Assembly (NCBI RefSeq): GCF_010119195.1 | Contig: NZ_WRXL01000003.1 | Span: forward strand, 297,639 to 361,638 | Length of the DNA: 64,000 nucleotides | Reading direction: 5' to 3' | Source: Haloarcula salina | GTDB lineage: Archaea > Halobacteriota > Halobacteria > Halobacteriales > Haloarculaceae | In this document: positions 8,219 through 23,753 of the stretch, in pieces | Layout: every line of letters starts with the position of its first letter | Position numbering within the stretch: position 1 is the first letter of the stretch | Program-made: the position numbers and the translations under genes | The notes under the pieces: generated by a model | Told to the model about the DNA's origin: nothing | Seen by the model: only the letters and a program-made list of their open reading frames with translations | Databases searched by the model: none

Positions 8219-10780
8219 CTAGGGCTCGTAGTCGGCGGCGACGACCTCGCGGATGCGGTCGGCGGTCACCTCGCCGATGCCGGACACGTCGAGCAGGTCC
8301 TCGCGGTCGGCGGTCATCACGGCTTCCACGCTCCCGAACGCCTCGAGGAGCGTCCGCGCCGTCACCGGGCCGACCTCGGCGATAGAGGCGACGACGTACT
8401 CCTGTTGCTCGGCCAGCGTCTTGGACTGTTTCTCCCCGTGGACGCTCACCTCGCGGTCCGAGACGTCCTGTTCGCGCTCGGCGATGACCTCCAGCAAGTC
8501 GGCCGTCTCGCCCTCGTCGGCGGTGCGGACGATGCTCGCGCCGAAGTCGACCGCCAGCGAGGCGAGCGCGCCCTGGATGGCCTTGTGGTGGACGTTGCGC
8601 GCGCCGTAGAGGTCCTCGCCCTCGATGACGACCACGGGGCGGGCGTAGTGGCGAGTGGCGTCCCCGACCTGCTCGAACATCGAGCGGTCGCCGCCGGTCA
8701 GCGTGTCCATGAAGTCCGCGACGGTCTTTCGCTCGACGACGACGCGGTCCGAGAGGACGTAGTCGCCGACGGCCAGCGTCTCGAGTCGCGTTTCGATCCC
8801 CTCGCGCGTCGAGAGGTCCCGGGCGATGGTGGAGTCAAGCTCCCGCTGGTCGGCGACGATCTCGATCTCGTCGGCGTCGGTCCCCGCGCTCGCGACGGTC
8901 CCGTCGCCGTCGGCTTCCTCCGGCTCACTCGCCGCATCGCCGTCGCCAGACTCGTCTTCGCCGTCCGTCGCGGTTTTGCGAGCCGCCTCGCTCGCCCCGG
9001 CGGCCGCGTCGGCGGCGAACGCGTCGAGGCCGGCCTGCCCGTCGCCGTCCTCGCCCGACGTGTCGCCCGTCCGACCGCTTCCGTTTCGACTGGAACCCGA
9101 CTCCTGTGTATGGGTTTCTCCCCCACCTGTTCCACTGGAAGCGGCCCCCGCTTCGGCGTCGGTTGCGTCGGTGTCGGTCGCCTCACCCCCGCCCTCGTAC
9201 TCGTCGAGGCCGGCCTGCCCGAGCTCGGCCTCCAGTTCGCCGGCGACGCTCTTGAGTTCGTTCAGCTCGCGTTTCATCCGCTTCTGGTCGTTCCGGGCCT
9301 TCCAGAAGTACGCCTCGTCGCGGGTGTCCTCGGCGAGCAGGACGACGACGCGACCCTCGGCCTGGCGGCCGGTCCGCCCCTTGCGCTGGATGGCGCGGAT
9401 CGCGGTCGGGACCGGCTCGTAGAACAGCACGAGGTCGACCTCGGGCACGTCGAGGCCCTCTTCGGCGACGGAGGTGGAGACGAGCACTTCGAACTCCCCG
9501 CCCCGGAAGCGGTCGAGGGTCTCCTGTTGCTGGCTCTGTGTCATCCCCTCGCTGCCGTCGGTGTCGCTCTGGCCGACGAACTTCTCGGTCTCGAAGTGGT
9601 TCGAGAGGAAGTCCACGAGCGTCTCGGCGGTGTCGCGGGACTCGGTGAAGACGATGACGCGCTCGCCGTTCTCGATGCCGAGCGTCTCCGCGAGCAGCAT
9701 TCGGGTCTGGCGGAACTTCGGGTGGAGGTCGTCGTAGGACTCGGCCTTGCGCATCGCCTCGCGGACCTTCGGCTCGCTGACGAGGCGCTGGTCGGCCTTC
9801 GACGCGCCGGAGGAGCGGGCGGCCTCCTTCAGGCGCTCGAAGTACCGCCGCAGGGACTCGACGCTCTGGGTCTCGACGTAGGTGACGGCGGTCCGCAGCT
9901 TCCGGATCTCGGCGAGCAGGCTCATCCCCTGGTAGCCCTCGCTCTGGTCGTTGTCCATCAGCTTGCGGAGTTCGGCCTGCATCCCCTGGATCTCGCGCTC
10001 GGAGACGTCGGCGGAGGACTTGTTCGTGACGCCGAGTTCCTTCAGCTTCCCGAGGCGCTCCTCGATGACCGCGTTGATGGCGTCGCGGATCTCGACGACG
10101 AGGTCGGGCAGTTCGATGCGGTTCCACTCGACGCTCGTGTCGTGGGTGTACTCGGCCACGTCGGCGTCGTCCTCGGTCATCACGGCCACCTCGGAGAGCC
10201 CGAGGTTCTCACAGACCTCGAGGATGGCCTCCTCGTCGTCGCCGGGCGAGGCGCTCATGCCCGTCACGAGGGGATCCTCGGCGTCGGCGTGGTAGCGGTC
10301 GGCGATGTAGTTGTAGGCGTAGTCGCCGGTCGCGCGGTGGCACTCGTCGAAGGTGCAGTGGGTCACGTCCGCCATGGAGATCCGGTTGCCGACGAGGTCG
10401 TTCTCGACGACCTGCGGCGTCGCGATGACGATGCGGGCGTCCGCCCAGAGGTCGGCGCGGTCGTCGGGGCGTACCTCGCCGGTGAACACGACGACCTCCT
10501 CGGGGTCGATTTCGAGAGCCTCGCGGTAGAACTCGGCGTGTTGCTGGACCAGCGGCTTCGTCGGGGCCAGCATGAGCGACTTCCCGCCGACGGCGTGGAG
10601 GCGCTCGGCGGTCACCAGCAGCGAGACGGTCGTCTTGCCCAGCCCCGTCGGGAGACACACCAGCGTGTGGCCGGCACTCGCCGTCTCGGCCAGTTCGACC
10701 TGATAGCGGCGGTTCTCCAGGAACTCCGGGACGACGAGCGGGCGCTCGACGTGCTCGCCACCGGCGTCGGCGGTCGACAT
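8219..10780 (-). CDS. hef: Hef helicase/nuclease (FANCM-XPF type)
   Basis: An 853-residue protein for repair of stalled forks and branched DNA. The N-terminal SF2 helicase has Walker A PTGLGKT near 44-50, motif II DECH at 146-149, ATPQVVEND, the Hef-specific thumb insert, and motif VI QRKGRTGRQ. An acidic, Ser/Gly-rich linker of about 100 residues follows. The C-terminal XPF-type nuclease has VVERKTVADFMDTL and ends in a tandem helix-hairpin-helix domain. The frame stays open to 11362, but ATG 10780 (MSTADAGGEH) gives the family N-terminus and avoids overlapping the upstream gene. It is a single gene, convergent with the p27-like gene. Confidence 0.95.
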   Translation of the reverse strand: MSTADAGGEHVERPLVVPEFLENRRYQVELAETASAGHTLVCLPTGLGKTTVSLLVTAERLHAVGGKSLMLAPTKPLVQQHAEFYREALEIDPEEVVVFTGEVRPDDRADLWADARIVIATPQVVENDLVGNRISMADVTHCTFDECHRATGDYAYNYIADRYHADAEDPLVTGMSASPGDDEEAILEVCENLGLSEVAVMTEDDADVAEYTHDTSVEWNRIELPDLVVEIRDAINAVIEERLGKLKELGVTNKSSADVSEREIQGMQAELRKLMDNDQSEGYQGMSLLAEIRKLRTAVTYVETQSVESLRRYFERLKEAARSSGASKADQRLVSEPKVREAMRKAESYDDLHPKFRQTRMLLAETLGIENGERVIVFTESRDTAETLVDFLSNHFETEKFVGQSDTDGSEGMTQSQQQETLDRFRGGEFEVLVSTSVAEEGLDVPEVDLVLFYEPVPTAIRAIQRKGRTGRQAEGRVVVLLAEDTRDEAYFWKARNDQKRMKRELNELKSVAGELEAELGQAGLDEYEGGGEATDTDATDAEAGAASSGTGGGETHTQESGSSRNGSGRTGDTSGEDGDGQAGLDAFAADAAAGASEAARKTATDGEDESGDGDAASEPEEADGDGTVASAGTDADEIEIVADQRELDSTIARDLSTREGIETRLETLAVGDYVLSDRVVVERKTVADFMDTLTGGDRSMFEQVGDATRHYARPVVVIEGEDLYGARNVHHKAIQGALASLAVDFGASIVRTADEGETADLLEVIAEREQDVSDREVSVHGEKQSKTLAEQQEYVVASIAEVGPVTARTLLEAFGSVEAVMTADREDLLDVSGIGEVTADRIREVVAADYEP

Positions 10781-20093: not shown

Positions 20094-23000
20094 CTACATG
20101 AAGTCCGCGATGCCGGACTGCTTGTTGTGGTCGTCTTCGAACACGGACTCGATCGACTGCTCGAGGACTTCGAGTCGCTGTTTCGTGTAGTCGCGCGCGC
20201 CGAACTCCTCGGCGACGCGGATGGCCGTGTCGATGTACTTGTTAACCGACCCCTCGTGGACCGTGAGGTTCACGCGGCCGCCGCACTCACGGCAGTCGCC
20301 GGTCAGCGGGGCGCGCCGGAACGACTCCCCGCAGTCCAGACACCTGACCTCCTGTCTGGAGAACGCCCGGAGGTTCCCGATGAGGTCCGGCAGGAAGTGG
20401 TACTCGATGATCCGCTCGGCCACGTCGCTCTCGACGACGGCCCGCAGCTTCCGGGAAATCTCCAGTTGGGCGTCCATCTTGTCCTCCATCGACCCGAGGG
20501 TCTTGTACGCCGAGAGGTCCGGTCCCGCCGCGATGTTCGTCGTGTCGTGGGTGTGCATGAACTCCGTGTACTCGCGGTCGGTGCCCAGCGTCTCCTCGGC
20601 GATCTTCATCACGTCCTCGACCTCCGTCGGGTCTTTCAGTTCCCGCGTGGCCTCGTAGAACTCGCGGGGATAGGTCGCCATGATGTCCATGTTGTGGGCC
20701 TCGTCGTCGATCTCGCTGGGATCGATGCGCGAGGACATCACCAGCGGCGCGTCCATCCGCCCGCCGCGCTTGTCCGGCAGGAACTTTCGCGAGAAGTTCA
20801 GCAGGCCGTCCATCAGGAGCATGACGCAATCTTCGTCACCATCGCAGTTCCGACGCTTAGCCGCGTGAAAATACGGATGTGCATAACCTACGGCAGCTGA
20901 TGTGAAGCCGACGACGCGGCCGACGGTCGCCGCGCTGGTGTGGGGGGCCATCCCGAATACGAGTTCGCCGACGAGGTCCTCGCGGTCGTCGAACTCGTAG
21001 AAGCGCTCCAGCCCGTAGTACTGCTTCAGCAGGTCGTCGACGAATCGCGCGGTCTGAAGCATGTGTTCCGCCGCGCCGTCCGACAGGACGATGTCCTGGA
21101 CCTTCAGCTCGACCAGCTGGTCGTCGTGGGTCAGCGGGTCGCCGTGGATGTCCTCGTCGTAGCCCAGCGCCCGGAGTCGGTCGGCGGTCACGTCCAGTTC
21201 GGCCGGCCGGACGGCGGTCACGGGCAGGTCCGTCATGTCGTAGCGGACGGTGCCGTCTTTGAACGCCGACACGTCGTGTTTCGCCCGGAGGATGCCCTTC
21301 TCCATCGGCTCGGGGGCCTTCTCGCCGGAGGTCAGCCCCTTGACGGCTTTCAGCGTGTCGAAGGCGGTCTCGCGCTCGCCGACGCTCTCCAGGGCGTTGC
21401 GGTAGGCCGCACGGAGGTCCAGTTCCTTGTACTGCGTGGGCGAGGCCAGCGTCTCACAGCGGGGGCACTCTGCCCGGCCGGACTCGTCCGGTTCGACCTC
21501 CGATTCGCAGTCGGGGCAGACGTACACCGGGTCCGCCGTGGTTCCGCAGTCCGGACAGCAAGCGTGGTGGGTCTCGGTGCCGCAGTCGCGACAGCGCCGG
21601 CGGGCGATCTCGACCTCGACGCGGCCGGGCGTGTCGCTCATGTCGTCGGCGTGCTTCGTGGCCTTCGCCACGTCGCGCTGTGCGCCGCCGGCCTCGCCGA
21701 TGGGGCTGAGCGTGTGGACGGCCGGCGAGAGGTCGCGGCGCTCTGACTTCTCCGGCCGGCCCATCCGGTTACCGATGCGTGTCGGGGCGCGCTCGCGGAC
21801 CTCGAAGGGCGCGACCTCGTTGATGGCCTCGACGGCGTTCTGCCCGTCTTCCGGTTCGGCGTCCTCCGAGACGCCGATGGCGTCGACCGACTCGCTCTCG
21901 CCGTAGGTCCGCGCGCGCTCGGAGAGGTCGGCGAACGTCCAGTCGCGCTCCAGCGACCGGGAGAACCCGAGCGTCCGCACCAGCGGAACCCAGTCGGTGA
22001 CCGTGACGGTGTCGTCGTCCTGCGTGTGTTCGACGAGCAGGTGTTCGAGGGTCTCCTGGACGGCGTCCGTGCGCGGGAAGACCAGCGCGCCGTCGTCGGT
22101 GTGAGCGTCGCCCGCTCTGTCCTCCGCCTCGGGGTCGGCGTACGCCCCGTCGGCCTGGGCGATGTGACTGTCCTCGACCGCGTCGGCGAGCGCGCCGACC
22201 TGCTCGACGCTCACGTCGTGCCAGAGGTAGGTGTACTTCGGGTGCAGCGGCGCGTCGTACTCGGTGGCCCACTCGAGGGCCTCGTCGGCGCTTGGGTCGT
22301 CGAGGTCGATCCGCGGGGAGTCCCGCATCGCCTGTACGTCCGCGCCCGCGGCGTCGAGGTCCTGGCTCCACCACTCGACGGTGTAGGAGGCCGGCGCGAG
22401 CGGGTGGTTGTTCTCGACGAACTCGCCGTAGTTGACGAGGTACTCGCCGAGATCGATGATCTTCTCGACGCCGTTGCGCACTTCCAGGGCCTCCTCGGCG
22501 TCGTCGATGCGCCGGACCTCGCCGTTCGCGAGGCGCACGGTCGGGCCCTCGATGGTGTCGACGGGGACGACGCCGGCCGCCTTTCCCGGCCGCTCGGTCT
22601 TGATCTGGGTCCCGGTCGCGAGGAAGTCGTCGACGAGGTGCATCGTCGCCGGGTGGACGCCGGCGGTCGCGAAACCGTGGTTGCGCGCCCGACCGTAGCG
22701 CAGGCGGAAGCCGCCCGCCTTCGACGGATGGGAGAACACCGGTCGGCCGGCGATGAGGTCTCGCAGGTACTTCTTCGCGGGGTCGACGCGGGGCGGGCCC
22801 GGCACGTCGTCGCTCTCCTCGTCCCCGTCTGCGTCGTCGCCCTCGTCGTCGGCCTCGTCACCGTCGCCGCTCGCGTCCTCCGAGCCCTCGTCGTCGGCCT
22901 CGGTCTCGCTCTCTCCGATGGTTCCGTCGATGAGGTCCTGGAGCCACGGCCAGTCGATCTCGTCCAAGTTCCGCGTGTAGCGCTGGATCTTCGGGGCCTT

Positions 23001-23753
23001 GAGCGCAATCCCCTCGGCGAGCACCAGACACATCCCGCCCCGGGGGGAGTTCGAGTCCACCCGCTCTAGGTCCCGGTAGCCCGAGACCTCCTCGTCGCCG
23101 GTCGCCTCGCCGTCCAGCATGATGGGCATGTGCTCGGCGATGAACTTCGTCTCCTTCTCCTTGGGCGAGTACTGCAGGCCGGTGTCCTTGTCGTAGAGGT
23201 CGACCTCCTCGGCGTAGCGGCCGATCTCGTCGTCGCGGGCCTTGTACTGGTCGATTCCGAGCAGCGCACGGGCGTAGTCCGCGACCAGCACCGAGAGCGC
23301 CTGGGCCGTCCCGCCGGCCGAGCGGATCGGGCCGGCGTAGTAGACGTTGATGAACTCCGTGCCGTCGTCGTTCTCCAGCAGCTCGACGCGGTCGATGCCC
23401 TCGATGGGGGCGGCGACGACCCCCTCGGTCAGCAGGGCCACGGCGGTCCGGACCGCGCCCTCGACTTTCCCCTCGCGGCTGTCGTAGTCGCCGACGGTCC
23501 CCTCGACGAAGTCGTCGACCAGTTCCAGCGCCGCCTCCTCGCGGGACATCTGGCCCTCCAGTTCGCGGACGCGCTCGGCGACGCCCTCGATGCCGAGGAT
23601 GTTCTCGACGCGGTCGGCCATGTCGCGCGCGGTCGGGATCTCGACCTCGGGCTTCGGGTCGCCGCCGCGCTGTTTCGCCCGCTCGGCCACGTCGAAGGCG
23701 TCCTCGAGCTGGCTTTCGAGCGTTTCGAAGTACCGTTCGTCGGCCTCCCGCAT
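20094..23753 (-). CDS. polC: DNA polymerase D large subunit (DP2), intein-free
   Basis: The 1219-residue catalytic subunit of the archaeal replicative polymerase D. It shows the N-terminal DP2 domain, a central acidic haloarchaeal insert (about 270-320), a cluster of zinc-binding CxxC pairs (CRDCG, CCPDCG, CPDCE, CPRCE), the active-site motif N969-C-D-G-D-E-D975, and a C-terminal zinc module CLDCGESF and CRECGG. Several haloarchaeal DP2 genes carry inteins; this one has none. The codons around the active site are strikingly AT-ending (see the 20826-20903 entry). The downstream neighbours are the PAS kinases; upstream, the PPC-domain gene ends 1 bp before the start. Confidence 0.95.
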   Translation of the reverse strand: MREADERYFETLESQLEDAFDVAERAKQRGGDPKPEVEIPTARDMADRVENILGIEGVAERVRELEGQMSREEAALELVDDFVEGTVGDYDSREGKVEGAVRTAVALLTEGVVAAPIEGIDRVELLENDDGTEFINVYYAGPIRSAGGTAQALSVLVADYARALLGIDQYKARDDEIGRYAEEVDLYDKDTGLQYSPKEKETKFIAEHMPIMLDGEATGDEEVSGYRDLERVDSNSPRGGMCLVLAEGIALKAPKIQRYTRNLDEIDWPWLQDLIDGTIGESETEADDEGSEDASGDGDEADDEGDDADGDEESDDVPGPPRVDPAKKYLRDLIAGRPVFSHPSKAGGFRLRYGRARNHGFATAGVHPATMHLVDDFLATGTQIKTERPGKAAGVVPVDTIEGPTVRLANGEVRRIDDAEEALEVRNGVEKIIDLGEYLVNYGEFVENNHPLAPASYTVEWWSQDLDAAGADVQAMRDSPRIDLDDPSADEALEWATEYDAPLHPKYTYLWHDVSVEQVGALADAVEDSHIAQADGAYADPEAEDRAGDAHTDDGALVFPRTDAVQETLEHLLVEHTQDDDTVTVTDWVPLVRTLGFSRSLERDWTFADLSERARTYGESESVDAIGVSEDAEPEDGQNAVEAINEVAPFEVRERAPTRIGNRMGRPEKSERRDLSPAVHTLSPIGEAGGAQRDVAKATKHADDMSDTPGRVEVEIARRRCRDCGTETHHACCPDCGTTADPVYVCPDCESEVEPDESGRAECPRCETLASPTQYKELDLRAAYRNALESVGERETAFDTLKAVKGLTSGEKAPEPMEKGILRAKHDVSAFKDGTVRYDMTDLPVTAVRPAELDVTADRLRALGYDEDIHGDPLTHDDQLVELKVQDIVLSDGAAEHMLQTARFVDDLLKQYYGLERFYEFDDREDLVGELVFGMAPHTSAATVGRVVGFTSAAVGYAHPYFHAAKRRNCDGDEDCVMLLMDGLLNFSRKFLPDKRGGRMDAPLVMSSRIDPSEIDDEAHNMDIMATYPREFYEATRELKDPTEVEDVMKIAEETLGTDREYTEFMHTHDTTNIAAGPDLSAYKTLGSMEDKMDAQLEISRKLRAVVESDVAERIIEYHFLPDLIGNLRAFSRQEVRCLDCGESFRRAPLTGDCRECGGRVNLTVHEGSVNKYIDTAIRVAEEFGARDYTKQRLEVLEQSIESVFEDDHNKQSGIADFM
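20826..20903 (-). other. Recoded, AT-rich patch at the PolD active site
   Basis: Sixteen of 26 codons here end in A or T (for example ACA TCA GCT, then GTA GGT TAT GCA CAT), against almost none in the flanking codons, while the protein sequence (TSAAVGYAHPYFHAAKRRNC followed by DGDEDC) is the conserved active site. The patch begins and ends abruptly. It may be a conversion tract or scar of a former intein (inference). Confidence 0.75.

Follow-up and report, generated by a model that had tools for sequence, protein, structure and literature searches.

Codons around an empty pol-IIa intein site in a haloarchaeal DNA polymerase D gene: a probable footprint of intein homing

Introduction

Homing group I introns and inteins are known to co-convert their surroundings, replacing a short stretch of flanking host sequence so that the flanks follow the element and not the host. 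Precise deletion of an intein leaves no trace, and its loss is therefore normally invisible. A homing cycle of invasion, degeneration, loss and re-invasion, with resistant alleles, accounts for the coexistence of intein-free, full-length-intein and mini-intein alleles in one genus. In haloarchaea, codons flanking the MCM-d intein were reportedly co-converted during invasion (PMC10643990). Soucy et al. (2014; PMC4071816) reported the pol-IIa intein, inserted in the large subunit of DNA polymerase D (DP2, encoded by polC), from 75 halobacterial sequences; many of the copies are mini-inteins, and losses are likely.

Here we analyse a 64,000-nucleotide stretch of a Haloarcula salina genome (the window) whose polC allele shares with the haloarchaeal pol-IIa system its gene and, by position, its insertion point, but differs in being free of the intein. 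The locus resembles the exonic co-conversion tracts of group I introns and inteins in that flanking sequence tracks the element and not its host, whereas here the flanks are distinct even in element-free alleles and form islands of synonymous, AT-ending codons that span about 180 bp and occur in several genes and throughout the class. It also departs from the homing cycle with resistant alleles, as we detect no resistance by target change, and intein-free and full-length alleles draw on a common pool of flank codons. Flank co-conversion by homing elements, including MCM-d, is thus known already; for AT-ending islands at empty intein sites we found no earlier report in the open literature, which is weak evidence of novelty as most subscription papers lie outside that scope, and the terms codon, synonymous and GC content do not appear in the text of PMC4071816.

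Results

The open reading frame of polC contains all three DP2 domains of Pfam (PolC_DP2_N, _central and _cat, with E values down to 3e-140), and its features are collected in Table 1. An earlier note on this DNA had described an abruptly bounded patch with 16 of 26 codons ending in A or T and had read it as a nucleotide-level feature, and both the description and the reading stand. In the remaining 1147 codons of the gene the proportion of AT-ending codons is 6.5%, the amino acids of the patch alone predict 2.0 such codons, and the runner-up 26-codon window outside the island contains 5. Among 20,000 genes simulated with AT-ending rates (AT3) specific to each amino acid, not one contained a 26-codon window with 16 AT-ending codons, the simulated maximum being 12, which rules out chance or amino-acid composition as the cause. 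The borders of the island are sharp (-20/-19 and +5/+6), the protein sequence is conserved across it, and a genuine intein insertion point lies at its centre.

Table 1. Features of the polC locus in the window; codons are numbered from the Cys of NCDGDED (+0)
Feature	Position	Strand	Description
polC / DP2, large subunit of DNA polymerase D, intein-free	20094..23753	minus	1219 aa; ORF, translation, Pfam
AT-ending codon island, codons -19..+6	20826..20903	minus	16/26 codons AT-ending
Empty pol-IIa intein insertion point, HAAKRRN/CDGDED	20846..20847	minus	between Asn AAC (20849-20847) and Cys TGC (20846-20844); relatives' inteins exactly here
Second, unoccupied pol-IIb intein site, RGG/(S)MDAPL, codon +29	20759..20760	minus	occupied in relatives
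Zone of AT3-rich intein-free alleles, tree following intein state, codons -30..+28	20760..20936	minus	family profile, trees
Left flank haplotype, codons -19..-1	20847..20903	minus	common to endonuclease-bearing (HEN) intein alleles L042 (same genus) and, codons -15 to -4, L080 (Halorarius halobius)
Right flank, codons +0..+7, TGC GAT GGT GAC GAA GAT TGC GTC	20823..20846	minus	8/8 as intein-free L011, half as L042

We searched 146 genomes of the window genome's family for DP2 relatives, most of which carry an intein exactly at the HAAKRRN/CDGDED joint, while some have one at another joint 29 codons further along; by gene and number, these joints correspond to pol-IIa and pol-IIb in Soucy et al. 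(2014; PMC4071816). The earlier note's statement that DP2 inteins occur at NCDGDED is borne out, and the insertion point (20847/20846) falls inside the patch (20903-20826), whose centring on it the note had suggested checking. Relatives' pol-IIa inteins span 169-553 aa, full-length copies being about 480-550 aa and mini-inteins about 170-190 aa; full-length copies contain LAGLIDADG_3 and Intein_splicing domains (LAGLIDADG_3 in both of two copies scanned), and no LAGLIDADG domain was detected in the single mini-intein scanned. At the DP2 site of the window allele, translation and comparison with relatives reveal an exact HAAKRRN-CDGDED joint with no intein residues left, which rules out a degenerate intein remnant. 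One relative (L132) has a pol-IIa intein of 255 aa, intermediate between the mini and full-length classes, possibly with a decaying endonuclease. At the pol-IIb joint, relatives bearing that intein have Ser immediately after the joint and most uninvaded alleles, including that of the window, have Arg, Gln or Lys; three alleles (L082, L120 and L127) have Ser there without the intein and may be ex-carriers.

Across 130 DP2 genes of the family (40 intein-free, 36 with a full-length intein and 54 with a mini-intein), AT3 is raised only at codons -30 to +29 and is flat elsewhere, at about 0.10. Within this zone it reaches 0.29-0.41 in intein-free alleles, where it peaks at the insertion point, 0.19-0.31 in full-length alleles and 0.13-0.21 in mini-intein alleles, with excesses of 0.218, 0.137 and 0.047, respectively. 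Intein-free alleles exceed mini-intein alleles in 9 of 12 genera (Wilcoxon p 0.021), a contrast that comes mostly from a few genera and is lacking in several, and the difference between intein-free and full-length alleles is not significant across genera (p 0.21). The same zone is raised (AT3 0.18-0.35) in 33 intein-free DP2 genes from three other families; since the intein-free alleles of the sampled families are AT-rich, the AT-ending zone at pol-IIa is a class-wide phenomenon and no peculiarity of the window strain. The earlier note had argued that the same AT-ending codons in all haloarchaea, regardless of intein history, would point to selection on the DNA or RNA. Such a distribution, as worded, is not what is seen: mini-intein alleles are mostly not AT-rich, but intein-free alleles are so across families. 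The shift in the patch is specific to A/T, with C/G turnover unchanged (C/G mismatch 0.284 against a background of 0.278), and uniformly faster synonymous turnover is thereby ruled out. No AT-rich donor was found, the genes sampled elsewhere in the class having a GC3 of 0.79-0.97, so that co-conversion alone leaves the AT-richness of the haplotypes unaccounted for.

We scanned 250 long GC3-rich ORFs of the window's genome (108,025 codons in about 460 kb of sequence) for internal AT3 islands with GC3-rich flanks. The DP2 patch ranks first (16/26), a Ser/Gly linker of a Hef-like helicase/nuclease in the same window second (14/26), and the Walker-A region of the genome's own MCM gene, another intein site, third (13/26), all lower-ranked islands having 10/26 or fewer. 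This unbiased scan of the genome picks out DP2 and MCM. The second-ranked island (9080-9157, in the Hef-like ORF 11689-8221 on the minus strand) is of low complexity and showed no sign of being an intein site. The genome's own MCM gene (locus L266) is intein-free; its AT-ending island covers Walker A, where the MCM intein sites lie, and its pattern, noted together with L215, resembles those of other genera. DP2, MCM, PolB and the main RNR are all apparently intein-free in the window's genome (G000), although most species of its genus carry the pol-IIa intein.

Intein sites in MCM and PolB were placed from intein-bearing relatives. Intein-free MCM genes have an AT3 of 0.258 over the zone of their four intein sites, as against 0.128 (p 7e-7), and intein-free PolB genes have elevated AT3 at NSLYG (p 0.04) and at YGD/T (PolB c, p 2e-4) but not at SLYP; the control zones of this comparison are not raised either. 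The excess by site is 0.229 at pol-IIa, 0.10-0.19 in MCM, 0.056 and 0.086 at PolB b and c, and 0.02-0.03 in rfc. There is no island at PolB a (-0.013) or in gyrB (-0.009, with the site placed by motif and not from an intein-bearing copy), and the excess averages 0 in rpoB, a gene without an intein. Islands are therefore present at most intein sites of intein-free MCM and PolB and absent from gyrB and rpoB. The behaviour of rpoB and of conserved PolB stretches rules out a general relaxation of codon usage at conserved active sites. Roughly, AT3 excess declines along with the reported site occupancy (PMC4071816), an informal trend in which the gyrB position is assumed. The RNR comparison comprised only seven intein-target paralogues.

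We compared the tree of the 59-codon patch with those of nine control segments of equal length by counting parsimony steps. Intein state (none or intein) requires 22 steps on the patch tree and 28-33 on the controls, whereas genus requires 36 steps on the patch tree and 21-27 on the controls; with RY-coded trees the corresponding values are 25 against 29-35 and 39 against 21-36. The patch tree follows intein state, not genus, unlike the nine control segments, and does so also after RY coding, which reduces the signal but does not abolish it and speaks against a compositional artefact. Gene exchange at the site, akin to the gene conversion that the earlier note had put forward among other origins, is indicated by this tree test. 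Cross-genus pairs of intein-free alleles with a run of 10 or more identical consecutive codons were seen at 17.2 against 2.7 expected from column shuffles on the left and at 4.0 against 0.4 on the right; such runs are about six- to ten-fold above the shuffles in the patch and one- to three-fold in background segments (seen/expected ratio 1.0-2.8). A simpler test lends exchange no support: nearest-neighbour genus agreement is no lower in the patch (0.77) than elsewhere (0.53-0.68). In a second family, 30 genes from many genera are nearly fixed for a rare-codon haplotype (GCA ACT GTC GGG AGA GTG ATT GGT TTC ... CAT CCG TAC TTT CAC), these loci having been chosen by similarity to a consensus that we composed ourselves, and AGA at codon -24 recurs in four families.

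The earlier note had asked whether intein alleles carry the same AT-ending codons as the window. Some do: L042, from the same genus and with a 505-aa intein, is identical to the window in 20 of 22 left-flank codons, and L080, from Halorarius halobius and with a 493-aa intein, has a 12-codon stretch that is the same save for one Gly codon. Window, L042 and L080 have in common a rare left-flank haplotype, which in the window stands without an intein and beside codons +0 to +7 that differ from those of L042; farther right, L042 is again nearest to the window allele. A search for further carriers of this haplotype returned only Halorarius halobius, and a degenerate pattern of the left flank had no match in IMG/VR viral contigs. 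The inteins of L042 and L080 both contain LAGLIDADG_3 and are visibly different in sequence, so no single transfer event is traced. In the background tree, built from the rest of the DP2 gene, the window is basal or sister to a wholly intein-bearing clade, and that tree therefore offers no support for intein loss here.

Discussion

The AT-ending patch in DP2 is probably a footprint of intein homing at pol-IIa, where flank haplotypes have been exchanged by co-conversion and are found, in this allele, without the intein. The position of the island, its dependence on intein state, its recurrence at other sites and its decoupling from species history are direct observations. As co-conversion would have it, the tract is centred on a known insertion point, the same flank stands beside an endonuclease-bearing copy in another lineage, and its history follows the element and not the host. 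At each homing or loss event, a double-strand break would be repaired with a short tract (about 90 bp per side) of another allele; because such repair replaces short flanks whenever an intein is gained or lost, flank haplotypes may circulate among species together with, or swapped against, the intein. Mini-intein alleles, without an endonuclease, would leave this cycle and drift back to GC-ending codons. Since the window's left flank is of the kind found beside endonuclease-bearing inteins but has no intein, its genome would be either an ex-carrier or the recipient of an ex-carrier's flank.

Selection for escape from the endonuclease might produce a similar pattern, if selection in intein-free alleles had favoured synonymous changes that make the site refractory to the homing nuclease; because the default codons are G/C-ending, such changes would go mostly to A/T, and AT3 is indeed highest in intein-free alleles, with its peak at the joint. 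Codon +2 (GGT versus GGC) separates intein-free from full-length alleles at p 0.04, and codons +5 and +6 do so at about 0.08, but the former is the best of some 70 tests, and once these are allowed for no column within 10 codons of the joint distinguishes the two classes, whose codons there are near-identical. Moreover, the AT-rich zone of about 180 bp is broader than a LAGLIDADG target, full-length alleles are also AT-rich although they have no target to protect, and turnover of C/G among GC-ending codons is not raised. The target change blocking a homing nuclease that the earlier note had suggested is thus unsupported, and we regard escape as unlikely. A constraint on the DNA or RNA itself, in which an overlapping element is kept in intein-free alleles and lost once an intein splits the segment, would suit the near-fixation of the second family's haplotype and the recurrence of AGA at -24 in four families. 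However, those 30 genes were picked by similarity, synonymous identity between genera of the window's family is lower in the patch (0.47 against about 0.65), full-length inteins split the segment too and the codons are nonetheless kept, and unrelated islands at MCM and PolB intein sites would not be expected of a DP2-specific element, all of which makes such a constraint improbable.

Homing might also leave its mark through mutation, with repeated nuclease breaks and error-prone repair adding C-to-T and G-to-A changes around the site, and an A/T-specific shift without extra C/G turnover, centred on the cut region, agrees with this. Deamination of resected 3' overhangs, however, predicts an excess of T on the left and A on the right, and fourfold sites display the opposite (T share 0.45 left, 0.66 right), an asymmetry in the wrong direction that rules out resection-linked deamination; two-step codons such as AGA are common to several families and long identical haplotypes to different genera, and we consider mutagenic repair very unlikely. 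Ordinary homologous recombination with a divergent relative, independent of any intein and landing on the active site by chance, is the most doubtful of these explanations. Haloarchaea recombine freely (PMC4500145), and conserved protein segments favour such exchange, but many genera have the island at these very codons, it depends on intein state, and islands occur at MCM and PolB intein sites while equally conserved stretches of PolB and rpoB have none.

With intein homing as our preferred reading of the DP2 patch, we tentatively suggest that empty intein sites in haloarchaea may preserve a legible record. Recurrent homing, rather than codon selection, may set the synonymous sequence of about 180 bp of catalytic core in the most-invaded replication genes, and the flanks may hitch-hike as haplotypes between genera and families, so that past invasions would be detectable in intein-free genomes from codon usage alone. 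The question bears on whether empty sites represent never-invaded, escaped or ex-carrier alleles. If the codon footprint is true, past invasions could be counted in intein-free genomes, the reach of homing in moving host DNA between species could be measured, and synonymous sites in the active sites of replication genes would not serve as neutral markers for haloarchaeal phylogeny.
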